Made by a program: the position numbers and the translations under genes. This document shows, in pieces, positions 2,419 through 12,910 of a DNA stretch of 12,910 nucleotides; the stretch's first letter is position 1; each line of letters begins with the position of its first letter. Below the pieces are notes generated by a model. The model was not told the DNA's origin, did not search any database, and worked only from the letters and a program-made list of their open reading frames with translations. This DNA comes from Pseudomonadales bacterium (GTDB lineage Bacteria > Pseudomonadota > Gammaproteobacteria > Pseudomonadales > Litorivicinaceae), in assembly GCA_012269655.1 (NCBI GenBank), contig JAAXJV010000238.1, forward strand, positions 1-12,910. The letters run 5' to 3'.

Positions 2419-3366
2419 TTACCCTTCCAACTGGGTTTCAAGCGCACCCAGCACTCTCATCGCCGCGGCAGCTTGATGAACGCTGGCATTCGGCTCGCGG
2501 TTTTCGCGAATGGCGCTCAAGAATTCTCGATCCTGCAGCTCAATCCCGTTCATTGAAACATCCACCTGACTGACATCAATGGGATTTTCTCGCCCATCGA
2601 CCAGATCATCGTAACGGGCAATGTAGGTTCCGTTGTCACAGATGTAGCGGAAGAACGTGCCCAGCGGGCCATCGTTATTAAACGACAGCGACAGTGTACA
2701 GATCGCCCCGCTGGCCGACTTGAGCTGGATTGACATGTCCATCGCGATTCCAAGTTCAGGATGCTTAGGCCCTTGAATGGCTTGCGCCTGTACAATTTCT
2801 TCGCCGGTCTGATAGGCAAACAGATCGACGGTGTGGCAAGCATGGTGCCACAGCAAGTGGTCCGTCCACGAACGCGGCTCGCCCTTGGCATTGGTATTGG
2901 TCCGGCGGAAAAAGTACGTCTGCACATCCATTTGTTGAATGTTCAAATCTCCAGCTACGATCTTGTTATGTACCCACTGATGGCTGGGGTTAAAGCGACG
3001 GGTATGTCCAGCCATTGCGACCATCCCCGTTTCTTTTTGCACTTCACACAGAGCCTCGGCATCCGTCACGCTGTCGCACATAGGAATTTCGATCATGACG
3101 TGCTTACCGGCACGCATCGCGGCAATGCCCTGTTGCGCGTGCAACTGTGTTGGTGACGCAATGATGACGGCGTCAACGCCGGGCGTGTTAATCGCCTCGT
3201 CAAAATCGGTGGTGTAATTGGCAATCCCGAACTGCTCTGCGATACCGCGAATCTGCTCCTCGCGACGCCCCATAATGGTGATGACCTCAGCATCATCAAT
3301 TTGGGCGATGGCATCCATGTGCTTTTGACCAAAGGCGCCTGCCCCAATAACCGCTATGCCTATCAT
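2419..3366 (-). CDS. ligC: 4-carboxy-2-hydroxymuconate-6-semialdehyde dehydrogenase (LigC/PmdC)
   Basis: A 315-residue Gfo/Idh/MocA-family oxidoreductase, the usual length of LigC. It oxidises 4-carboxy-2-hydroxymuconate-6-semialdehyde (as its cyclic hemiacetal) with NAD(P)+ to 2-pyrone-4,6-dicarboxylate. The Rossmann loop GAGAFG is at residues 8-13. EIP at 93-95 stands where many family members have EKP; from memory, LigC-type enzymes share this. HTRRFNPSHQWVHNKIVAG (from 121) and LLWHHACHTVDLF (from 171) are characteristic, the latter carrying the catalytic-region histidines. The ATG follows directly on the ligB stop, with GGGGAA upstream inside ligB, so the two are probably translationally coupled. 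Position after ligA and ligB strongly supports the assignment. Confidence 0.94.
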   Translation of the reverse strand: MIGIAVIGAGAFGQKHMDAIAQIDDAEVITIMGRREEQIRGIAEQFGIANYTTDFDEAINTPGVDAVIIASPTQLHAQQGIAAMRAGKHVMIEIPMCDSVTDAEALCEVQKETGMVAMAGHTRRFNPSHQWVHNKIVAGDLNIQQMDVQTYFFRRTNTNAKGEPRSWTDHLLWHHACHTVDLFAYQTGEEIVQAQAIQGPKHPELGIAMDMSIQLKSASGAICTLSLSFNNDGPLGTFFRYICDNGTYIARYDDLVDGRENPIDVSQVDVSMNGIELQDREFLSAIRENREPNASVHQAAAAMRVLGALETQLEG

Positions 3367-4215
3367 TTATAGTTCCCCATTCTTCAAAATTGTGACCCCA
3401 TACGAGGTGTTCGAAACCGGTCGATGCATAAACCGGTATTGTTCTTGTACTTCGAGCGGTAATGCACCGCGCATAATCATCCACATAGCCAATTCAACGC
3501 CTTCAGAACCGGTTTCACGCAGCAGCTCGGTATAGGTTAAACCTTCTAACGAGTCGGGGTTATTGACCAGATCTTCGATAAATTGCGCGTCGTATTCGAC
3601 ATTCAACAAACCCGCACGCTCACCTTGCAATTGATGACTCATGCCGCCGGTTCCCCACACGGCTACGTTGCGTTCGCCGGGAAAACTAGCCACGGCTCGG
3701 GCGATGGCCTTACCCAACGCATAGCAGCGTTTCACACTCGGCTGCGGGGCTTGAACCATATTGACGGCTAACGGAATCACCTTAACGGGCCAAGCGTCCG
3801 GGCGATTGTAGGCAATCGACAAGGGAACCGTGAGCCCATGATCCACGTCCAATTCGTTACACAAGGTCAGGTCGAATCCCTCGTCGGAGACCAGTACGTT
3901 TGCTAAGTGCCAGGCTAACTCAGGGTCGCCCTTTACTACCGGCACAGGGCGCGGGCCATACCCTTCGTCTGCCGGTTCGAATTCATCGGCCAGGCCTAAC
4001 GCAAAGGTTGGAATGGTTTGCAAACTAAAGGTGCTTGCGTGGTCGTTGTAAACCAAAATGATGGTGTCCGGGAGATTGTTTTTGTGCCAATCGCGTACCG
4101 GCTCAATTCCGTCAAAAAAGGGCTTCCAGTATTCCTCGGCTTCCTTGTGGTGATCGATCGCGGCGCCGATTGAGGGGACATGGGGGCTCCCCATGCCATG
4201 TACGATTTTCGCCAT
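3367..4215 (-). CDS. ligB: Protocatechuate 4,5-dioxygenase beta (catalytic) subunit
   Basis: The iron-bearing subunit of a class III extradiol dioxygenase that opens the ring of protocatechuate, or possibly a relative such as gallate, between carbons 4 and 5. The chosen ATG (4215) gives 282 residues and puts the first iron ligand at His12, as in Sphingobium LigB. His59 (in VYNDHAS), the base His194 (in GTGGMSHQLQG) and Glu241 (in GSEGVE) fit the other iron ligands and catalytic base. A GTG at 4230 would add five residues, but GGGAG sits eight bases before the ATG, and the ATG overlaps the ligA stop by one base (TGATG). The C-terminus is about 20 residues shorter than in LigB, past the conserved core. 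Separate alpha and beta genes argue against the fused gallate dioxygenase type (GalA/DesB), but substrate preference is not fixed by the sequence. Confidence 0.95.
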   Translation of the reverse strand: MAKIVHGMGSPHVPSIGAAIDHHKEAEEYWKPFFDGIEPVRDWHKNNLPDTIILVYNDHASTFSLQTIPTFALGLADEFEPADEGYGPRPVPVVKGDPELAWHLANVLVSDEGFDLTLCNELDVDHGLTVPLSIAYNRPDAWPVKVIPLAVNMVQAPQPSVKRCYALGKAIARAVASFPGERNVAVWGTGGMSHQLQGERAGLLNVEYDAQFIEDLVNNPDSLEGLTYTELLRETGSEGVELAMWMIMRGALPLEVQEQYRFMHRPVSNTSYGVTILKNGEL

Positions 4216-4610
4216 CAGTTTTGCTCCCACTCAGAAACGTAACGGTTGCCTTCAATCGAGCGTCCACCGTCCAGCATCATTTTTCTAAACTCGTCCCCGC
4301 TCATCCCTTCACGAGACATGGCTGCGCCTAAATCTTGCATGGTCATACCGTCAAATGCAGCGAGCTTGAAGGTGAAATAGACATTTCCACCTAAGCGCAA
4401 CATCTCGAGCCATTGACGCTTTAGAATCGCATCGCGTTGCGGTTCGGTCAGCTTGAAGCCCGCTAAATAGGCCGCTTCATCGGCACGAAAGGCCTCCCGA
4501 CAATGGGCTTTGTTCAACGTCATTAAGCATTGATTTAAGTGATATCCCTTGCGGCAATGTTCACCGTCCTGAACATAAGTGCCCGGGATATCTTGATAAC
4601 CGGTTTCCAT
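4215..4610 (-). CDS. ligA: Protocatechuate 4,5-dioxygenase alpha subunit
   Basis: A 131-residue LigA-type small subunit, which caps the active site of the catalytic LigB subunit in the heterodimer. Recognisable segments are DIPGTYV (7-13), RKGYHLNQCLMTLNKA (20-35), GGNVYFTFKL and MMLDGGRS near the C-terminus, all in the order seen in LigA proteins (about 139 residues). It is the first gene of the minus-strand ligA-ligB-ligC operon and overlaps ligB by one base. ATG 4610 is preceded by GGTGAG/GAGTGG, a moderate ribosome site. The promoter should lie in the 81-bp gap shared with the divergent LysR gene. Confidence 0.93.
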   Translation of the reverse strand: METGYQDIPGTYVQDGEHCRKGYHLNQCLMTLNKAHCREAFRADEAAYLAGFKLTEPQRDAILKRQWLEMLRLGGNVYFTFKLAAFDGMTMQDLGAAMSREGMSGDEFRKMMLDGGRSIEGNRYVSEWEQN

Positions 4611-4691
4611 AACTCACCACTCAATTTTTTCGCCAGCATAGTTCGATTGTTTGGTTGCATAAAGATTAATAATTAGAAATCATTGTTGCAT
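4611..4691. promoter_or_regulatory. Divergent ligA / lysR promoter-operator region
   Basis: An AT-rich 81-bp gap between two divergent genes, the classic arrangement for a LysR regulator controlling its neighbour. The heptamer TTGCATA occurs twice in the same direction, at 4655-4661 and 4686-4692, 31 bp apart (about three helical turns); the second touches the lysR start codon. The imperfect symmetry element TAATAATTA lies between them. On the minus strand a TATGCT could be the -10 box of ligA, with only a poor -35 match 17 bases upstream, as is common for activator-dependent promoters. No binding data exist, so this is inference from arrangement and repeats. Confidence 0.5.
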
Positions 4692-5585
4692 ATGAGCAAC
4701 ACTGAAGATCTTCGAAATTTTGTCCACATCGTGCGCGCTGGCAATATTTCCAACGCCGCAGTTCAGTTAGACGTGCCCAAATCAAAGCTATCCCGAAGCC
4801 TCAAGCGTTTAGAAGAAAGCTTGGGCTGTGGTTTGTTCATTCGAAACACTCGAGCCATGCATTTAACTGAAGACGGGGCGACTTTGTATCGGGATATCGC
4901 TCCTGCATTACAAACCCTAGAAACCAGTCTGGAGAAGTTGGCATCCCAATCATCTGGACCCACCGGATTACTGCGAGTCAGCATCCCGCTTGCGTTTGGG
5001 CGAGAAGTTTTGATTCCTGAGCTACCTAAATTTAGAAAGCAGTTTCCCAATGTTCAGCTAGACATCCGATTAGCCCCGCAAAGCACGAATCCGGTGCGCG
5101 ATGGCATTGATCTGAGTATTGAAGTGGGAGAGCTCAATTCATCTCAGCTGATCGCACAACGCTTTTTGACCGTCGAGCAATGGTTAGTCTGCCATCCAAG
5201 GTTTGACCGCACACTGCCCTACAACAGCCTATGGATGGATCGGCGCCACCGCCCTGCTACGGGGATAGAGGCAGATACAAGCACAGAGAAATCAACGGTT
5301 AATCCGAGTTGGCATGAGGCTCAAATAGTCGATGACCCACTAAGCATTCGTGAATTTATCGCCAGCAATGCGATTCAAGACATAGCCCTAATTCCAGATC
5401 TCTACGCAAGGCCCTGGATTGCAAAGGGCTGGTTGCAGCGAATCTCAACTGAGATCAACTTACCCACCCAAACCCCCGTATATTTCGTTTCAAATCGAAT
5501 CAGCTTAAGTCAACCCAAAAGTCAGGCGTTTATTGAGTTCGCCAAAGTGTGTGTGTTGGATTACCAAAGCCAAAGCCGAGATTAG
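4692..5585 (+). CDS. LysR-type transcriptional regulator, probable regulator of ligABC
   Basis: A 297-residue LysR regulator of normal architecture. The N-terminal winged HTH covers about residues 1-62 (ISNAAVQLDVPKSKLSRSLKRLEE), and the effector domain about 85-290 begins LRVSIPLAFGREVL, as in the CrgA/AaeR-like subgroup. It is divergent from ligA with 81 bp between, so it most likely senses protocatechuate or a cleavage product and controls ligABC and itself. The ATG at 4692 is preferred over TTG 4683, since the extra three residues (MLH) lie outside the conserved domain. Neither start has a good ribosome site, which suggests low expression. Its stop overlaps the stop of the convergent permease gene by four bases (5582-5585). 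Confidence 0.9.
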   Translation: MSNTEDLRNFVHIVRAGNISNAAVQLDVPKSKLSRSLKRLEESLGCGLFIRNTRAMHLTEDGATLYRDIAPALQTLETSLEKLASQSSGPTGLLRVSIPLAFGREVLIPELPKFRKQFPNVQLDIRLAPQSTNPVRDGIDLSIEVGELNSSQLIAQRFLTVEQWLVCHPRFDRTLPYNSLWMDRRHRPATGIEADTSTEKSTVNPSWHEAQIVDDPLSIREFIASNAIQDIALIPDLYARPWIAKGWLQRISTEINLPTQTPVYFVSNRISLSQPKSQAFIEFAKVCVLDYQSQSRD

Positions 5586-6331
5586 GCAATCAGGGCCGTC
5601 ATTGAATTCAATAGCGCCAGGCTAATCAGACTGATCACAAGCCATCTAATCCACGACTCGGGCAATAAGCGAACAGCCAATATCCCTAAGGGTATTGCAA
5701 CAACTGCCCCTAAAGTCATTGCGCCTAGTGTCGCCAAAGAAACAAAGCCTCCCTGACTCAGCATCAGGCCGGTCGCCGCAGATAGAACCAATCCAATCGG
5801 GATCGACGCTGCTACTGCAATTTTTATTGATGTTGAGTATTGAGACAGAATTAAAGGAATGACGAAAACTCCACCTCCCACGCCCGTTAAGCCGACTAGG
5901 CTGCCTGTAGCTGCACTCCCGAGCGTTCCCGACTGTCGGTTCACCCAGTTTGAAAACCGGGCGTCAAACATTGCCCAAAGTGCTAAACCCGTAGCTAAGA
6001 CCAATAAACCTTTGATGAAGGTGTCGGTTTGAAGCGGAAAAGCATGTCGGGCCTGCATGGCGATAAAGGCCGCTAAAAGACAAGCCGGTAGTGCCCATTT
6101 CAGAAAGCCGAAGATGATCTCTTTATTGGCCGAAATTGCCTTTCGCTGAACGGCCAAGATCAACACCTTGGTAATGACCGCAAAAATCGAACCGGTGGCC
6201 ACAGCTTCGAGCGGATCAATTCCCAATAGCGACACCATCATTGGAATGATGATGACGCCCGCACCGACGCCTGAACACATAATCAACACCAGTGACGCGG
6301 CACCTAACCAGAGGGCAGGATCAAGAAACAT
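5582..6331 (-). CDS. TauE/SafE family membrane permease
   Basis: A 249-residue integral membrane protein with about seven to eight hydrophobic helices and the two-fold internal repeat of the TauE/SafE (DUF81) family: a glycine-rich motif GVGAGVIIIP at 21-30 and GVGGGVFVIP at 150-159, each followed by an amphipathic helix and a hydrophobic segment. Members move anions such as sulfite, sulfoacetate or organic acids across the inner membrane. It is the last gene of the minus-strand operon and follows a sulfatase by 50 bp, so export of sulfite or sulfate, or movement of a sulfated compound, is a reasonable inference. Direction and substrate are not known. The ribosome site before ATG 6331 is weak. 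Confidence 0.88.
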   Translation of the reverse strand: MFLDPALWLGAASLVLIMCSGVGAGVIIIPMMVSLLGIDPLEAVATGSIFAVITKVLILAVQRKAISANKEIIFGFLKWALPACLLAAFIAMQARHAFPLQTDTFIKGLLVLATGLALWAMFDARFSNWVNRQSGTLGSAATGSLVGLTGVGGGVFVIPLILSQYSTSIKIAVAASIPIGLVLSAATGLMLSQGGFVSLATLGAMTLGAVVAIPLGILAVRLLPESWIRWLVISLISLALLNSMTALIA

Positions 6332-6381
6332 GGCGATTGAGTTTTGCCAACTTAGTGCAGTAGCCCGTCATCATGATCATC

Positions 6382-7941
6382 CTATGCCCGGCGAATTGAA
6401 CGAGGGCTTTCGTCCATTGTGGCAGTGATTTCTAAGGCGAGTTGTTCCAACAACTCCCCTTTCTTTAACGCAAACTCTGTATCAAACCAAAGATTTTTTC
6501 TATGGTGAGGATCAGCCGCGGTGTGATAAAGCTCGCCCCAGTCCTCACCAGGATAAATGGTGAGACGCCACTCTTTCTGATAAAGCGTTCGGCTCCTCGA
6601 TGGAGCCGTTAAACCCATTCGCGGCACATTGTCGTTATGTTCAATCAGCAATTGTTGACGACCTTGGCCAGTCTTTACATCCTGCAGTAAGTCACGCCCC
6701 TGTATTCCAAAGTAAGGGGGCACACCGGCTCGGGCAAGAATTGTTGGGGCAATATCAATCGCACTACTCATCACATCGGTCTTTTGCCCGTTAGGCGCCT
6801 CTGGATCTCGCCATACAAAAGGCACTTGGTGGGTACTGGTACGTATCCACGGGCCCTTTAACAGCAAGTTTGCATCGCCTAAATAATCGCCATGGTCAGA
6901 GGTATAAATGAATACCGTGTTCTCATCGAGCCCCGCTTCTCTCAAAGCCGTATGAATAGAGCCTACGGCATCGTCTACCATCTCGATCATTCCCGCGGTT
7001 AGAGCCATCGCCTCTTTGCAATGGCGTGTCGTCGCCATAAAACTTTCTTGACTCGTATTGGGATACAGCCCTTGTGAAAGTCGATCATAAGCGTATTGCA
7101 ACATCGGCGGTTTTTCTTCGATGTCTTCGGCGGGATTATCCAAATCGAACTGCTCCGGTCTGTAACGATCCCAATACTTGCCGGGTGGATTGAATGGGTG
7201 ATGTGGATCAGGGAACGACACAAAAAGAAAAAAAGGTTGCTCAGGATCCGCTGAATGCTTAAGCCATTCCACCGTCTGATTTTCAATGTATCGGGTGGGG
7301 TATAGCGCCTCGGGCATGATCGTTCGGCAAGCTTGTGGCACACCGTAGTCATGCTCTAATTGTTGTGTCGGGTCAGTCAACTCAGCTGCGTTAGCAGTCT
7401 GTTCATTTAACCATTGCCGATAGTGACCACTGCATTCAATACCATGGCCGGTGACCATATCGACATGATCATAGCCATAGTAAGGCTTGGGGAAACTATA
7501 CCGGCCACTGCTATTGTAACGGCCAGGCTCCTCATGCACGTACGGTGCTAACGTCTCCTTCCAGGCTTCTGTGAAGCTTTCGTTGAAATGCTGATGACTT
7601 CTGTCTATCGAAAACGGAGTGAAGGGTTGCAAATGACTCTTCCCAATTGCTGCCGTTTGATATCCAGACTGCCGTAACAATTCAACAAAGGTGTTGGCTC
7701 GAGTGGACAATGCACAACCGTTGTATCGCAGACCATGCACACTAGGATAACGACCCGTCATAATGCTGGCTCGGTTTGGCATACATACAGGAGAAGCGGT
7801 ATGAAAATCCGTGAAACGTAATCCTTGTTCTGCTAGGGCATCAATATGAGGCGTCTTGATCACCTCATGGCCATAGCAACCAAGCCAATCGGCACGTTGT
7901 TGATCAGAAACGATCATCACGAAATTAGGCTGTTTTCTCAT
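6382..7941 (-). CDS. Cys-type sulfatase / phosphonate monoester hydrolase family enzyme, cytoplasmic
   Basis: A 519-residue alkaline-phosphatase-superfamily hydrolase. The signature C-x-P-x-R (Cys53-Met-Pro-Asn-Arg57, in ASIMTGRYPSVHG context) is the site where Cys is converted to formylglycine. Asp13, Lys101 and His103 (GKSHL), His247/248 (PDPHHPF), Asp349-His350 (TSDHGDYLGD) and Lys362 fit the metal and sulfate ligands. Asp14 of the common DD pair is Gln here, as in some phosphonate monoester hydrolase relatives. There is no signal peptide, so it acts in the cytoplasm on an imported ester. No formylglycine-generating enzyme gene is in the window, so one must be elsewhere. Placement between a tautomerase and a TauE/SafE permease suggests desulfation of an organic sulfate feeding the pathway. 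Phosphodiester or phosphonate ester substrates cannot be excluded. Confidence 0.9.
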   Translation of the reverse strand: MRKQPNFVMIVSDQQRADWLGCYGHEVIKTPHIDALAEQGLRFTDFHTASPVCMPNRASIMTGRYPSVHGLRYNGCALSTRANTFVELLRQSGYQTAAIGKSHLQPFTPFSIDRSHQHFNESFTEAWKETLAPYVHEEPGRYNSSGRYSFPKPYYGYDHVDMVTGHGIECSGHYRQWLNEQTANAAELTDPTQQLEHDYGVPQACRTIMPEALYPTRYIENQTVEWLKHSADPEQPFFLFVSFPDPHHPFNPPGKYWDRYRPEQFDLDNPAEDIEEKPPMLQYAYDRLSQGLYPNTSQESFMATTRHCKEAMALTAGMIEMVDDAVGSIHTALREAGLDENTVFIYTSDHGDYLGDANLLLKGPWIRTSTHQVPFVWRDPEAPNGQKTDVMSSAIDIAPTILARAGVPPYFGIQGRDLLQDVKTGQGRQQLLIEHNDNVPRMGLTAPSRSRTLYQKEWRLTIYPGEDWGELYHTAADPHHRKNLWFDTEFALKKGELLEQLALEITATMDESPRSIRRA

Positions 7942-7970
7942 AATTCTTTAGATTCGCTAGGCGCCCTAAG

Positions 7971-8168
7971 CTATTCCAGACCCTGTTTTTCAGCCACGGT
8001 GATCCCGCCCACACCCAAATCGAATGGCGACACCTCTCGAATGACTACCATGACTCGTTCGTGACTGCATCCAGTGCTGTCTACCATGGCTTGAGTAACG
8101 TTTCTCACAATGGATGCTTTTTGCTCCTTGGTGCGACCCTCTTTCATTTCCACATGAACAATTGGCAA
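7971..8168 (-). CDS. 4-oxalocrotonate tautomerase family protein
   Basis: A 65-codon gene (64 residues after Met removal) whose true start is the TTG at 8168. That start gives Met-Pro-Ile-Val-His, with the catalytic N-terminal Pro1 of the family, and lies seven bases after AGGAG. Arg11 (in KEGRTKEQK) and the GVGG turn at 51-54 are conserved. The position of Arg39 in the classic enzyme is Met39 here, with Arg43 nearby, and Phe50 is Leu, so activity may differ from true 2-hydroxymuconate tautomerase. These small homohexameric or related enzymes move keto-enol double bonds in ring-cleavage products, which fits an operon with a hydroxymuconic-semialdehyde-type dehydrogenase. Gaps are 20 bp to the hydrolase upstream and 29 bp to the sulfatase. 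Confidence 0.88.
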   Translation of the reverse strand: MPIVHVEMKEGRTKEQKASIVRNVTQAMVDSTGCSHERVMVVIREVSPFDLGVGGITVAEKQGLE

Positions 8169-8188
8169 AACATTACTCCTGGTTCTGT

Positions 8189-8884
8189 TTAGTCTTGCAA
8201 CCAAGCATTGAGCACTTGGTTCACTGCGAAAGGCTGCTCAAATGGAGCAAAATGGCCTGCGTCAGGTATGACTTCTAGTCGACTCCCGCTAATTCGCTCA
8301 TGCATCCGTTGATGCTGCTCCACTGGGCTCCAGGCATCTTCCCGGCCGACAACGATTAGCGTTTTGCATTTGATGGTCGTAAGCACACTGTCCGCTTCTT
8401 GACGGTTAATCAATGCTTCTATTTGATTGCGATGGATCACGCTATTCATGCGGCCTAACATGCCTACCAATGGCGATAAAATTGAATCGTCACGATGGAA
8501 TTTAGGGTGAAGCATAGGAAGCAACCAAGGTTCCACAAGAGACCTCATTCCTTTTTTTTCACCAAGCTCGACCAAGGCCAAACGCTTTTCACCCTCGCCT
8601 TCCCTGTAGTCGTGCGTTCCAGTATCCAGTAACGCCAAACGATCAACCCGATCTGGTGCAGAACGAATGATCTCCAGAGCTACCCGGGCCCCCATCGAGT
8701 GCCCCGCAACCATGATTGGCCCACTGACAGACTGCAAGATGTGCTCAGCCATGCCAGCCAAACTCTTGAACTCATCCAAAGAAGGTATAAAAACCTTTTG
8801 ACTTGACGGCAATTGCTCCACGAATGGCTGCCAAACCAATTCGTCGCAAAGCAGACCCGGAATTAACACCAGTGTTGATGACAT
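8189..8884 (-). CDS. Alpha/beta hydrolase, ring-cleavage or lactone hydrolase type
   Basis: A 231-residue alpha/beta-fold hydrolase. The nucleophile elbow GHSMG holds Ser63. The acid is probably Asp183 (VGREDAWSP) and the base His211 (DAGHFAPFEQP), giving a complete catalytic triad. LVLIPGLLCDELVW at 5-18 supplies the oxyanion-hole region. Relatives include enol-lactonases, meta-cleavage product hydrolases and esterases; the exact reaction cannot be told. ATG 8884 is chosen because it begins directly with MSSTLVLIPG, lies one base after the stop of the upstream decarboxylase-like gene and has GGCGAG before it; an upstream in-frame ATG at 8923 would overlap that gene and add 13 unconserved residues. 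Translational coupling with the upstream gene is likely. Confidence 0.88.
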   Translation of the reverse strand: MSSTLVLIPGLLCDELVWQPFVEQLPSSQKVFIPSLDEFKSLAGMAEHILQSVSGPIMVAGHSMGARVALEIIRSAPDRVDRLALLDTGTHDYREGEGEKRLALVELGEKKGMRSLVEPWLLPMLHPKFHRDDSILSPLVGMLGRMNSVIHRNQIEALINRQEADSVLTTIKCKTLIVVGREDAWSPVEQHQRMHERISGSRLEVIPDAGHFAPFEQPFAVNQVLNAWLQD

Positions 8885-8885
8885 C

Positions 8886-10571
8886 TTATTTCTCGCCGTC
8901 ATCCTGCCCAATGCTGACATCAAGCAAGACTGGACGTTGTTCTTCCCGAATCACCTTTAGAGCCCGATCTAGGGCGGCAGGCAAATCCTCCGCGCGCTGA
9001 ATAGTCTCTGCGTAACACCCTGCTGCGGCCGCAATGTCTCCGTATCTTGGCGCTGGCGAAAACGGCACCATAGGCACATGTGGCGCAGCAGATGCCTGTC
9101 CATCGGGATACACGTCTAGCGTAGAGATACGCACTGCGTCGTAACTGCCGTTATTCAATACCACCGTCAAGACTGGTAATTCGTATGCATTGGCCACTTG
9201 ATGCGAGGCAACTGGATTGGCAAACATATAACTGCCGTCACCGATCATGCAAACCACCAGCTTTTCCCGGTTAGCAAGCTGATATCCTAAGGCGGCTGGC
9301 AATCCCCAACCCAAGCCTCCAGCTTGTGTATTGCCAAACCACTGGTTGGGCCCCTCCAACTCGAACAAACCCAGGGGACCGCCTCGCTCTGAGAAAACTA
9401 CGCCATCCCCCAAAATCTTAGATATACATTTACCAATCCAAGGCTTATTGGCCACTCCCACGCATCCAGCCTCAACTTTACTGTTAATTCGCTGCCGAAA
9501 CGCAAGATGTTTATTGACGATTTCTGCTCGACGTTGTTCGTTAACTGAACCAGGTAACGCCGCCTGTAAGGCTTCAAGGGCCTCCACGGGATCACTGATG
9601 ATCGCGTCTGTGGTCAGGTAGCCTCGAACCGGAATTCGATTGAAAAGTGGATCAGCACCGAGATGGATCACCCTTGCATCAGGCGCAGGTGTCGCTTTGT
9701 GTTCGATCCATGCTACTGGAGTGTCGACGACTAACACCACGTCCGCATTGGGCAAATGAGCGGCAATGTTGCCTCCTACTCCGTGGTCAAAATTAGTCGG
9801 TAAGACGTTTCGGGTTACAAACACTTCACTGACAGCAATACTGTTTTCCTTGGCAATCGTCTGGATCAGTCGACTTAATTTGCCGTCTTTATCTCCACGA
9901 GAACAGATAATTAATGGGTTTTTCGCTTCAGCAATTAACTTTGCAACCTTTTCAATCTCGCCAAGATTCGGTGCTGAGGGTGCTGCCGGTACTTGAGTGA
10001 CTCGGACGGGCTCGGCAGTTTGCTCGCACAAAGGTTCACGTGGTAAGGACAAGTACACGGATCCAGGTGGTTGGGTATTGGCAATCGCGCACCCACGACT
10101 GACAAGATGTACCGCTTGTTCAGGATATCGGAGCTCATAATCCCACTTGACAGTCTCTCGAACCATGGCTGTCTGATCGAACATTTCCTGGCCATATTGA
10201 ATGGGGGTATGCCGACTGCCCATGCGATCACCCTCAGTTAGAGGATTCCTTCCGGACATCAAAAATACTGGCACATTATCTGAATGTGCGTTGATCATTC
10301 CCATGGTGGAATTGGCTAAGCCCACATTGACATGAACTGCCGCTGCGGCCATGTCTCCCGTGGCCAAATAATAGCCATGCGCCATGGTGACCGCTAAGTT
10401 CTCAAAAGGCACCACTACGGGCTTGGGAATATACTGTGCTTCCACGCCGGCATAAGCTTCAATAATTGGTGCAAAGTCACTGCCCGGATTAGTAAATAAG
10501 TAATCAACGCCGTTCATTTTGAGCGAACGTAAAATCGCCTCACCAGCGGACATATCAGTACTTTTTATCAT
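8886..10571 (-). CDS. Thiamine-diphosphate-dependent enzyme, 2-oxoacid decarboxylase / acetolactate synthase-like
   Basis: A 561-residue enzyme of the pyruvate oxidase / acetolactate synthase / benzoylformate decarboxylase superfamily. The N-terminal PYR domain (about 8-175) has the cofactor-activating Glu57 in VPFENLAVTMAHGYY. A central Rossmann-like domain spans about 200-340. The C-terminal PP domain binds thiamine diphosphate through GDGS at 444-447 and Asn-Asn at 473-474 (VVLNNGSYDAV). It would decarboxylate or otherwise cleave a 2-oxoacid in the cytoplasm; the adjacent aldehyde dehydrogenase could oxidise the aldehyde formed, as in the benzoylformate branch of mandelate catabolism. ATG 10571 is preferred over TTG 10577 because AAGGAT lies eight bases before it. 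The gap to the dehydrogenase is 12 bp. The acetolactate-synthase role is less likely in this context; substrate unknown. Confidence 0.87.
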   Translation of the reverse strand: MIKSTDMSAGEAILRSLKMNGVDYLFTNPGSDFAPIIEAYAGVEAQYIPKPVVVPFENLAVTMAHGYYLATGDMAAAAVHVNVGLANSTMGMINAHSDNVPVFLMSGRNPLTEGDRMGSRHTPIQYGQEMFDQTAMVRETVKWDYELRYPEQAVHLVSRGCAIANTQPPGSVYLSLPREPLCEQTAEPVRVTQVPAAPSAPNLGEIEKVAKLIAEAKNPLIICSRGDKDGKLSRLIQTIAKENSIAVSEVFVTRNVLPTNFDHGVGGNIAAHLPNADVVLVVDTPVAWIEHKATPAPDARVIHLGADPLFNRIPVRGYLTTDAIISDPVEALEALQAALPGSVNEQRRAEIVNKHLAFRQRINSKVEAGCVGVANKPWIGKCISKILGDGVVFSERGGPLGLFELEGPNQWFGNTQAGGLGWGLPAALGYQLANREKLVVCMIGDGSYMFANPVASHQVANAYELPVLTVVLNNGSYDAVRISTLDVYPDGQASAAPHVPMVPFSPAPRYGDIAAAAGCYAETIQRAEDLPAALDRALKVIREEQRPVLLDVSIGQDDGEK

Positions 10572-10583
10572 GTCCAAAAATCC

Positions 10584-12056
10584 TTATTGATCGAATAAAC
10601 GTACAGTTACGGTTTGTGGTTGAGAACAAAACTCCAATGAGTCACGACCCCCATCGCGGCCTAACCCACTGGCGCCGACCCCACTTATTGGGCTCAACAA
10701 GTCCCTTAATTGCCAAGAGTTAACCCATGCGTGTCCAACTCGAACTTGAGGAGCAACTCGATGAGCCCGGCTAATGTTCTCAGTCCAGATCGAGGTGGCT
10801 AAGCCGTATTGCGTGTCGTTTGCTAAATCAATTGCTTCTTGCTCGTCGTCAAACGGCGCAATGTGTAGCACTGGACCAAAGGCCTCTTGTTTAACAAACC
10901 GCGCAGTTTCAGGCAGGCCAATAGCAATAGAAGGGAGAATGAAAGCGCCGTTATCCCTCTCGTCTCCGAATTTTGGGATGTCGCCGCCGGCGACAAATTC
11001 ACCGCCATCTTCAACGACGGTATCCAACAGGTTCTTTACTTTGTCTCGATGAGCATGGCTTACCAAAGGCCCAATACTGAATCCTTCGTGATGGAGGTCG
11101 CCGATCACAATGTCGCTGGCTGCCTTGGCCATTTTTTCAATGAACTCGTCATAACGAGATCGGTGCACGTAGGCCCGCTCTGTACAAAAACAGATCTGAC
11201 CCGCATTAAAGAATGACGAGCGACGGACACCATCGATCACGTGATCCATGTTGGCATCTTGAAAGATTAATGCAGCATTCTTCCCGCCTAGCTCTAAAGA
11301 AACCTCACGTAATCCGACAGATGCGGCCTGCATGATTTGGACGCCCGTCGCACTTTCGCCGGTAAAATTAAATGCATTTACCAGAGGATGACGGGTGAGA
11401 TACTCGCCAGTGGATCCCGCGCCAAATCCGTGGACCAAGGAAAACACACCATCAGGAATGTCAGACTCAGCAATGACTTCGGCCAAAATGGCACTGGAAG
11501 ATGGCGTTTCTTCGGAGGGCTTAGCAACTACACCGTTACCCATAACGAGAGCGGGTGCAATTTTCATACACATCATTAATAGAGGCATGTTCCATGGGGT
11601 AATGCATCCGATTACACCTTTGGGACGGCGATTGGTGTACCACATCGCTTTACCCATAGCCCCAGAGAAACTCTTGCTTCGGTCCTCTAAATTTTCTGCA
11701 GCCGCGGCATAAGCTCGAAATAATTTTGCCGCTCGTGCCCCGTCAAAATTACATGCCTGCCAATAACTCCGACCTGTATCTTGAACTTCTGCTTCCACGA
11801 GATCGTCTACTCGCGCCATCAGCCGACCGGCAAAATCCTCAACGATTGCCAATCGTTGAGTCATTGCTAGATTGCCCCAAGCACTTGCTCGGTCACCAAT
11901 AGAAACGCGATGAGCCGCCCTAACCGCCTCGTCCACCATCGATTCAGTGGCTTCGTGCACGGTAGCAATCGCTTGGCCGTGAAAAGGGCTGGTTTTTACA
12001 AACGTTCGTTCCCCGACTTGCCATTGGCCCGCAATATAATTAGTTAGCTCTTGCAC
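10584..12056 (-). CDS. Aldehyde dehydrogenase, 2-hydroxymuconic-semialdehyde dehydrogenase-like
   Basis: A 490-residue NAD(P)+-dependent aldehyde dehydrogenase of full family length. Asn156 (PWNMP), Lys179 (AKPSEE), Glu255 (LELGGKN) and nucleophile Cys289 (NAGQICFCTER) are all in place. The segments NAGQICFCTERAYV and KPSEETPSSSA resemble the DmpC/XylG/AmnC subgroup that oxidises semialdehydes of catechol meta-cleavage, but the subgroup is judged by eye. It could oxidise such a semialdehyde, or the aldehyde made by the neighbouring thiamine-diphosphate enzyme. The start is GTG 12056, with AAGGAA six bases upstream. It lies 35 bp after the TRAP permease gene and 12 bp before the decarboxylase gene, in one apparent operon. 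Confidence 0.9.
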   Translation of the reverse strand: MQELTNYIAGQWQVGERTFVKTSPFHGQAIATVHEATESMVDEAVRAAHRVSIGDRASAWGNLAMTQRLAIVEDFAGRLMARVDDLVEAEVQDTGRSYWQACNFDGARAAKLFRAYAAAAENLEDRSKSFSGAMGKAMWYTNRRPKGVIGCITPWNMPLLMMCMKIAPALVMGNGVVAKPSEETPSSSAILAEVIAESDIPDGVFSLVHGFGAGSTGEYLTRHPLVNAFNFTGESATGVQIMQAASVGLREVSLELGGKNAALIFQDANMDHVIDGVRRSSFFNAGQICFCTERAYVHRSRYDEFIEKMAKAASDIVIGDLHHEGFSIGPLVSHAHRDKVKNLLDTVVEDGGEFVAGGDIPKFGDERDNGAFILPSIAIGLPETARFVKQEAFGPVLHIAPFDDEQEAIDLANDTQYGLATSIWTENISRAHRVAPQVRVGHAWVNSWQLRDLLSPISGVGASGLGRDGGRDSLEFCSQPQTVTVRLFDQ

Positions 12057-12091
12057 AGTATTTTCCTTAAAGCTTTTGATTGGGCCATGAA

Positions 12092-12910
12092 CTACGCTAG
12101 CTCGCGCTTTTCAGATTTGCTGTGGAACAGCCAATGAGCCAACAACAGTCCAGTACTGACGGCAAAGGCCGGTAAGCTAATAATTAAATCTGGGTGAATC
12201 ATCAAGAGCGCGGCTCCAATTCGGACGAGTACTTCCCAAAGCGACAAAGCATGGCGATCGTAGCGACTGGCCGCAGATGCCAGCAGATAGATCAGCATGG
12301 CCAGGCGAATCAAAATCCAGCCGAAGCCCAACCAACTAAAATCACCTCCCGCCTCTGCAACAATCAACATTTCTGGATTGAAGGCAAACATAAAAGGTAT
12401 GGCAAAGATCACGATGCCAATTCGCGTGGCCTGAACTGCGGTTGAAATGGCGCCAGCACCACTGATTGAAGCTGCAGCGAAGGCAGCCATGGCGACTGGC
12501 GGAGTGATGGCCGAAGCCACACCAAAATAGAATACGAAAAAATGCGCAGTGAGTTGGGATAGCCCTAAAGCGATGAGCGCAGGCCCCAAAATAATCACGA
12601 TCGTCAGATATGCTGGCAACGTAGGCATACCCATGCCCAACGCCAAAGCCGAAATACCGGCAAGGCACAGAGCGAATAACAGATTGTCACCGGCACTAGC
12701 GCTTATCACTTTGGCAAACTCTAATGGTAAGCCTGTTGCACTCAGAACTGCGACGATCAGACCAACGGTACCGATCGCCATCAATAAACGCCCAAATGTC
12801 ATTCCACCACCGGCGAATGCTTTGGCCAACAAAATGGGGCGTTGACGAATTTCAGGATTCAGAAAGCTCAACGCCATTAGGAAGGACAAAGCCAACATGG
12901 CTGAACCAGC
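12092..12910 (-). CDS. TRAP transporter fused permease (4TM/12TM type), C-terminal part
   Basis: The last 272 residues of a membrane protein that continues beyond the right edge; the frame is open to 12910, so the start is missing. Several hydrophobic helices are visible with the DctM-type signatures ALGMGMPTLPAYLT and YFGVASAITPPVAMAAFAAA, followed by FMFAFNPEMLI as in fused DctQM permeases of the TAXI subclass. The full protein would use a sodium gradient and a periplasmic binding protein to import an organic acid. It is the first visible gene of the leftward operon, 35 bp before the aldehyde dehydrogenase, and so is a good candidate for the uptake system of the pathway substrate. The binding-protein gene is probably just outside the window. 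Confidence 0.88.
   Translation of the reverse strand, partial: AGSAMLALSFLMALSFLNPEIRQRPILLAKAFAGGGMTFGRLLMAIGTVGLIVAVLSATGLPLEFAKVISASAGDNLLFALCLAGISALALGMGMPTLPAYLTIVIILGPALIALGLSQLTAHFFVFYFGVASAITPPVAMAAFAAASISGAGAISTAVQATRIGIVIFAIPFMFAFNPEMLIVAEAGGDFSWLGFGWILIRLAMLIYLLASAASRYDRHALSLWEVLVRIGAALLMIHPDLIISLPAFAVSTGLLLAHWLFHSKSEKRELA

Follow-up and report, generated by a model that had tools for sequence, protein, structure and literature searches.

A candidate benzoylformate-type gene set with a built-in sulfatase beside ligABC in a Pseudomonadales genome

Background

Among described systems, two come closest to the locus treated here, namely the bzf cluster (Pseudomonas sp. LLC-1) and the mdl pathway for mandelate (P. 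putida). Both combine a thiamine diphosphate (ThDP)-dependent 2-oxo acid decarboxylase with an aldehyde dehydrogenase, a LysR regulator and a transporter, and flanking vanillate demethylation genes are a shared trait of the comparison (PMC7760541). We describe a predicted seven-gene operon of similar composition on contig JAAXJV010000238.1 of the Pseudomonadales bacterium assembly GCA_012269655.1 (Litorivicinaceae). The analyzed stretch, hereafter the window, is the whole contig (12,910 nucleotides); the genome is incomplete, at 78% completeness in 310 contigs. Unlike the bzf and mdl systems, the window has a ThDP enzyme of another family (NF006203), a dehydrogenase of the hydroxymuconate-semialdehyde subfamily, a TRAP importer and a built-in sulfatase.

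A second similar system is the syringate pathway of Pseudomonas NGC7 (mgaABCD, galBCD), in which a LigAB-type dioxygenase, an alpha/beta hydrolase and a tautomerase lead toward 4-oxalomesaconate. MgaC, the putative hydrolase, presumably acts on the methyl ester that ring opening of 3-O-methylgallate yields, and the putative tautomerase acts next. Unlike the tautomerase in the window, that of NGC7 is SnoaL-like and not 4-oxalocrotonate-tautomerase-like, and the accessible part of the source mentions no sulfatase or ThDP enzyme for NGC7 (PMC12314914, also for the two preceding statements). The lig pathway for protocatechuate 4,5-cleavage, as in Sphingobium sp. SYK-6, has LigA, LigB, LigC-type, LigI, LigJ, LigK and LigU counterparts in the genome of the window, and is the ordinary part of the system.

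Marine plants, algae and animals produce phenolic acids in sulfate-ester form. We found no gene set for growth on such compounds in the open-licence literature, which does not show its absence from print. In one report, arylsulfatases of SAR86 are proposed to act on lipids (PMC11582366); another refers to the decarboxylase work by citation only (PMC6801914). We propose that the operon is a variant of the benzoylformate-type pathway with a built-in sulfatase, of which we found no description in the open-licence literature.

Results and discussion

The operon and its conserved core

The core of the operon, i.e., the importer, the dehydrogenase-ThDP pair and the sulfatase, is conserved. Our interpretation, held with moderate confidence, is that the operon encodes a benzoylformate (mandelate/bzf)-type peripheral route for the sulfate ester of a hydroxylated, probably methoxylated aryl-C2 acid, and that this route ends in LigAB cleavage.

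An earlier note on this DNA had described a leftward operon of seven genes with gaps of 1-50 bp, which is borne out: all genes between 5582 and 12910 lie on the minus strand, and family models return the same families that were named then. In transcription order these genes encode the C-terminal part of a TRAP transporter fused permease (12092..12910; PF06808, TIGR02123; TAXI-type by its relatives), an aldehyde dehydrogenase of the hydroxymuconate/aminomuconate-semialdehyde subfamily (10584..12056), a ThDP-dependent enzyme proposed to be an arylglyoxylate decarboxylase (8886..10571; NF006203, 576 bits, cut-off 456), an alpha/beta hydrolase (8189..8884; PF12697), a small tautomerase of the 4-oxalocrotonate tautomerase type with a TTG start and a proline right after it (7971..8168; PF01361), a sulfatase of type I (formylglycine) that has no obvious signal sequence (6382..7941) and a TauE/SafE-family permease, a proposed sulfate exporter (5582..6331; PF01925). 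The gaps are 35, 6, 1, 20, 29 and 50 bases with the hydrolase start at ATG 8884 and the tautomerase start at TTG 8168; the second gap is 12 bases if the ThDP gene starts at ATG 10571, the alternative start being TTG 10577. From the spacing alone we infer one co-transcribed unit. Scans of the window gave 7 promoter sites (11.1 in shuffled sequence) and 12 terminator sites (11.9), an excess in neither case.

To trace the ThDP gene in other genomes, we used an alignment of 19 ThDP proteins (A1), namely that of the window and 18 picked among the 120 matches listed. The scan of the genome collection with A1 gave 92 confirmed stretches, of which the best 80 were kept, yielding 79 loci. In 16 close loci (L013-L025, L028, L034 and L074) the ThDP protein is 67-72% identical to that of the window; in 63 distant loci the identity is 45-50%. 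All the close-locus records carry alphaproteobacterial names, and many of them are marine. In 14 of the 16 close loci, a dehydrogenase gene of the same subfamily lies upstream of that for the ThDP enzyme, directly adjacent in 13 and with one intervening gene in L034; a 61-residue remnant is left in L014, and there is nothing in L024. TRAP permease and TAXI binding protein genes are present in 11 close loci, a sulfatase gene likewise in 11, and a LysR gene of one cluster in 10. Three of the five loci lacking the sulfatase (L015, L019 and L022) are cut off by a contig edge at a place that might hold it; L014 and L024 genuinely lack it. The window-type sulfatase cluster is found in none of the 63 distant loci, two of which carry another sulfatase (25-33% identical).

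At E 1e-150, a close ThDP gene was found in 1 of 369 genomes of the class, the window's own. The search of relatives at E 1e-60 gave a ThDP match in 5 of 96 genomes, the four others being 35-41% identical. In the 25 genomes of the family, the dehydrogenase occurs in one at E 1e-130, again the window's own, and the sulfatase in four. The gene order suggested for comparison in other genomes recurs as far as the sulfatase, importer and dehydrogenase-ThDP pair are concerned; among the loci compared, the operon adjoins ligABC in the window only.

The sulfatase and its partners

The sulfatase belongs to type I (S1), with the CMPNR motif at residue 53 and 175.8 bits for PF00884 (gathering score 25). 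Its closest solved relative by sequence is 4upi. It does not reach the cut-off of either arylsulfatase model, NF010322 or NF052527 (241 vs 481 and 151.8 vs 850). Its N-terminus is not hydrophobic, so the enzyme is expected to work in the cytoplasm on imported substrate.

An unrooted tree places the window sulfatase together with sulfatases from three genomes of the same family (59-61% identical; support 1.000). A separate group, split from all others with support 1.000, is formed by ten alphaproteobacterial sulfatases that are 48-49% identical to that of the window. The L020 sulfatase stands apart (42% identical to that of the window, with the outgroup at 0.960), and the ThDP enzyme and dehydrogenase of L020 lie with those of L022 among the others. 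The window dehydrogenase and TRAP permease are nearest to those of L034 (support 0.976 and 0.807), among alphaproteobacterial ones; the placement of the window ThDP enzyme is weak (0.665). The simplest reading is that three sulfatase lineages joined the same dehydrogenase-ThDP module by repeated recruitment, the alternative being an ancient duplication with loss.

These lineages bear on the idea that the sulfatase has an ester outside this pathway as its substrate, such as a sugar sulfate or choline sulfate, and happens to be located in an aromatic operon. S1 sulfatases are indeed diverse, all five NCBIfam models that the window protein matches (arylsulfatase, choline-sulfatase, PehA and others) stay below cut-off, and the sulfatase of one family relative (L115) has neither an importer nor a ThDP gene beside it. 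We nevertheless regard this idea as quite improbable in view of the association of all three lineages with one module and of the presence of a sulfatase gene in 11 of the 16 close loci, in 9 of which it lies between the TRAP and dehydrogenase genes. Elsewhere it is found behind the LigM gene (L020) or behind the tautomerase gene (the window), and the contig of L016 starts at it. The general idea of the earlier note, catabolism of a sulfated aromatic compound, stands in that the sulfatase recurs alongside the importer and the dehydrogenase-ThDP pair. Among the kinds of substrate considered, a sulfated aromatic acid has the best support.

Two other family relatives have the sulfatase with an importer. 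In L116 it occurs with an alpha/beta hydrolase, a TctA/TctC-like importer (by eye) and a partial ThDP gene (25% identical). In L114 the order is LysR, TAXI, TRAP and then the sulfatase, and the TAXI-TRAP-sulfatase run (7565-13390) is followed by a thiolase-like gene (by eye) without a decarboxylase; this set perhaps serves another sulfated substrate.

Only the C-terminal 272 codons of the TRAP gene are present because the contig end cuts the gene; the TIGR02123 score of 184.5 (cut-off 320.65) comes from these 272 residues. The permease is 67-73% identical to 10 of the 11 close-locus permeases, which lie downstream of a TAXI binding protein gene, and 52% identical to the damaged-looking one of L022. 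A search of the rest of the assembly for the missing 5' part and a matching binding protein gave only other genes (28-39% identical). The distant loci L060, L068, L069 and L081 bear a TRAP permease 60-65% like that of the window.

The ThDP enzyme

The best match of the ThDP enzyme in the PDB by sequence is 6qsi, titled 4-hydroxybenzoylformate decarboxylase, and its nearest solved relatives are benzoylformate decarboxylases. A profile search with A1 against the PDB at E 1e-60 gave no match, and the score for the benzoylformate decarboxylase model NF005485 is below cut-off (151.9 vs 493). We take S26, E47, H70 and H281 to be the catalytic residues of benzoylformate decarboxylase. The first three align with S33, E59 and H82 of the window enzyme, and are aligned in all 19 rows of A1; the eight distant rows all have T for S at the S33 position. 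The position of H281 is occupied by E292, so that the catalytic set is incomplete.

The combination of a ThDP enzyme with an aldehyde dehydrogenase and TauE/SafE resembles systems for sulfoacetate export. Under a corresponding explanation, these proteins would convert sulfopyruvate via sulfoacetaldehyde into sulfoacetate and export this C2 sulfonate, and the sulfatase would be incidental. The match of the ThDP enzyme to the sulfoacetaldehyde acetyltransferase model is weak (109.9 bits, cut-off 620). Sulfatases cleave esters, not sulfonates, relatives of the module are accompanied by LigM-type, LigAB or 4-oxalomesaconate genes, and no relative of the window TauE was found in the loci searched, so we rejected the sulfonate pathway as very unlikely. 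A TauE of another subfamily occurs in 21 of the 63 distant loci. Sulfate could leave the cell through TauE, or in L014 and L034 through SulP.

Neighbourhoods of more distant ThDP relatives contain PobA, a LigK-type aldolase and 4-oxalomesaconate tautomerase (a Nitratireductor plasmid), an alpha-hydroxy acid oxidase (Sagittula) or a gene of the 2,4'-dihydroxyacetophenone dioxygenase family (Sulfitobacter), and as predicted gene sets they fit aryl-C2 chemistry.

The earlier note had named zosteric acid as a plausible substrate. This is unsupported, since a ThDP decarboxylase would be superfluous for a cinnamic acid sulfate; the operon has no cinnamate-type step, and the CoA-type genes found in the genome lie on another contig (C103).

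The aldehyde dehydrogenase

The dehydrogenase scores below the cut-off of TIGR03216, the model of 2-hydroxymuconate semialdehyde dehydrogenase (589.9 vs 693.25). Its nearest solved structure is 4i1w, an aminomuconate enzyme in which R120 and R464 presumably bind the substrate carboxylate. R108 and R451 of the window enzyme align with them. R451 is present in all 14 relatives and R108 in 13 (the 14th is truncated there), and neither is found in the six distant-locus dehydrogenases compared. Because the operon group keeps both arginines, the substrate aldehyde probably bears an anionic group at its far end, which would be a carboxylate or a sulfate.

The carboxylate would suit a role in ring fission. 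Here the dehydrogenase would oxidise 4-carboxy-2-hydroxymuconate-6-semialdehyde to 4-carboxy-2-hydroxymuconate and the tautomerase would act next, parallel to LigC/LigI, with the ThDP enzyme and the sulfatase forming a separate upstream step. The subfamily of the dehydrogenase and its two arginines, the assignment of the tautomerase to families named for 2-hydroxymuconate and the adjoining ligABC genes agree with this. We nonetheless consider it unlikely. The dehydrogenase gene accompanies that for the ThDP enzyme in 14 of the 16 close loci, and neither a tautomerase nor LigAB was detected in these 16, several of whose contigs are short. Relative to the aminomuconate enzyme, all members of the operon group have three changed pocket positions (W177 to M, Y462 to Q and F470 to L or I), and LigC and LigI already cover this job in the genome. 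The pairing with the ThDP gene favours an aryl aldehyde as the substrate. Thus, of the semialdehyde oxidation that had been proposed for the enzyme, the likeness to hydroxymuconate-semialdehyde dehydrogenases holds and the step itself is uncertain.

The sulfate would suit another order of reactions, which we put forward only as a doubtful variant. Desulfation would come last, the decarboxylase and the dehydrogenase would work on the still sulfated compound, and the R108/R451-type arginines inherited from a muconate-semialdehyde dehydrogenase would hold the aryl sulfate. Estimated from standard bond lengths, the distances from the aldehyde to the anion are similar, with 6.3 A in extended hydroxymuconate semialdehyde and 6.6 A in 4-sulfooxybenzaldehyde. 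If this order is true, the sulfate is a carrier group, like CoA or phosphate elsewhere, until the sulfatase frees the benzoate for LigAB.

Ring cleavage and the adjoining genes

The ligABC genes form a unit apart on the minus strand (2419-4610). It consists of ligA for the alpha subunit of protocatechuate 4,5-dioxygenase (4215..4610; TIGR02792, 126.3 vs 108.6), ligB for the beta subunit (3367..4230; NF009903, 396.4 vs 317; 1b4u) and a gene for a ligC-type dehydrogenase (2419..3366; PF19858, PF01408), which neighbours ligAB in the family members L117 and L118 too. A plus-strand gene for a LysR regulator (4683..5585; PF00126, PF03466) lies between ligABC and the operon, divergent from ligA and convergent with the operon; its overlap with the TauE gene end is 4 bases. 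On contig C180 the genome also carries LigJ (relatives 2gwg and 6dwv), LigK, LigU (4-oxalomesaconate tautomerase), LigI (relative 4d8l) and PobA, and on C103 it has a VanA-domain oxygenase, so the ring-cleavage products can be fully used.

LigM takes the methyl group off vanillate or 3-O-methylgallate. A LigM-cluster gene is found in 9 of the 16 close loci and 10 of the 63 distant ones. The L017 protein, the only member scored, exceeds the cut-off of NF047885 (614.3 vs 580) and is also matched by 5x1i; no LigM over cut-off was found in the window's own genome. L020 adds a LigK-like gene (over the cut-off of one of two LigK models) and an over-cut-off 4-oxalomesaconate tautomerase gene. Among these genes, downstream of the operon, L020 also encodes a catechol 2,3-dioxygenase-like type I extradiol enzyme (11818-12771; 293.7 bits, cut-off 320.2).

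Relatives of the window hydrolase gene adjoin the ThDP gene in L015 and L041 and ligA in L081, share a gene run with LigM in L029, and lie beside the sulfatase in L116. In L015 the hydrolase occupies the slot after the ThDP gene that LigM holds elsewhere, and in L081, from a Rhodospirillales genome, the genes for the hydrolase, LigA, LigB, the ThDP enzyme and TAXI-TRAP stand in a row (8045-14840). Because of these two placements and the NGC7 precedent, we tentatively suggest that the window hydrolase, as a methyl-ester hydrolase, and the tautomerase might process the ring-fission product of 3-O-methylgallate. The tautomerase is over cut-off for TIGR00013 (58.0 vs 56.9) and NF002571 (62.2 vs 55), both of the 4-oxalocrotonate tautomerase family, and below it for four other models; it has P1 and R11.

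Several observations weigh against the route proposed here, and its ending in particular. The lig clusters of L117 and L118 come without the operon, LigAB occurs in none of the 16 close loci, and LigB is present in 10 of the 25 family genomes. Further, the tautomerase has methionine at the position of R39, which we take to be a functional residue of the classical 4-oxalocrotonate tautomerase. The earlier claim of a LigABC endpoint is retained for the wider 4,5-cleavage context (the LigM-type genes, L081, the Nitratireductor plasmid and LigI/J/K/U in the genome) and weakened as regards the adjacency. That LigAB next door would serve the operon is nevertheless our working interpretation.

Proposed route

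In the benzoylformate-type route, the substrate would be an arylglyoxylate, or the mandelate preceding it, in sulfated form. A TAXI-TRAP importer would take up the sulfated acid, the cytoplasmic sulfatase would cut off the sulfate and the TauE permease would let it out. Decarboxylation of the 2-oxo acid by the ThDP enzyme would then give an aldehyde, which the dehydrogenase would oxidise to a benzoate. This benzoate, i.e., protocatechuate after demethylation or 3-O-methylgallate, would be cleaved by LigAB. In the case of 3-O-methylgallate, the alpha/beta hydrolase would hydrolyse the methyl-ester product and the small tautomerase would give 4-oxalomesaconate. Finally, LigU, LigJ and LigK would turn 4-oxalomesaconate into pyruvate and oxaloacetate. 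Every substrate, the order of desulfation and the roles of the hydrolase, the tautomerase and TauE are what we infer.

If this route is true, the operon core is a marker for the turnover of sulfated phenolic acids in Rhodobacteraceae, their relatives and the lineage of the window, and a substrate class is assigned to the ThDP family NF006203, so far without a named function. Since different sulfatases are paired with one decarboxylase-dehydrogenase module, the idea of a sulfated substrate can be tested directly.

Other observations

A second conserved set accompanies the ThDP gene in distant loci (among L026-L091). It comprises TAXI-TRAP, an IclR-like regulator (by eye), an Amidohydro_2 protein (27 of 63 loci), an FAD monooxygenase (31 of 63), an aldehyde dehydrogenase and TauE (21 of 63).

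Contig C103 of the window's genome (L098) carries genes for the VanA-domain oxygenase, a 2Fe-2S reductase, an acyl-CoA synthetase, an enoyl-CoA hydratase and, by eye, a TRAP set of DctP type; by composition, the whole looks like a ferulate-type route.

The left part of the window encodes a 404-aa regulator of LysR type that contains two HTH_1 stretches (58-1272). A likewise long LysR gene (1329 bases) adjoins lower-pathway genes on the Nitratireductor plasmid (L123). The window also has a DUF1932 dehydrogenase-like gene (1519-2373) that may belong to the 4,5-cleavage pathway. Its homologues are found in the lig clusters of family relatives, 56% identical in L118, between the ligC-type and LigJ-type genes, and 37% identical in L117, as well as in loci L020 and L034.

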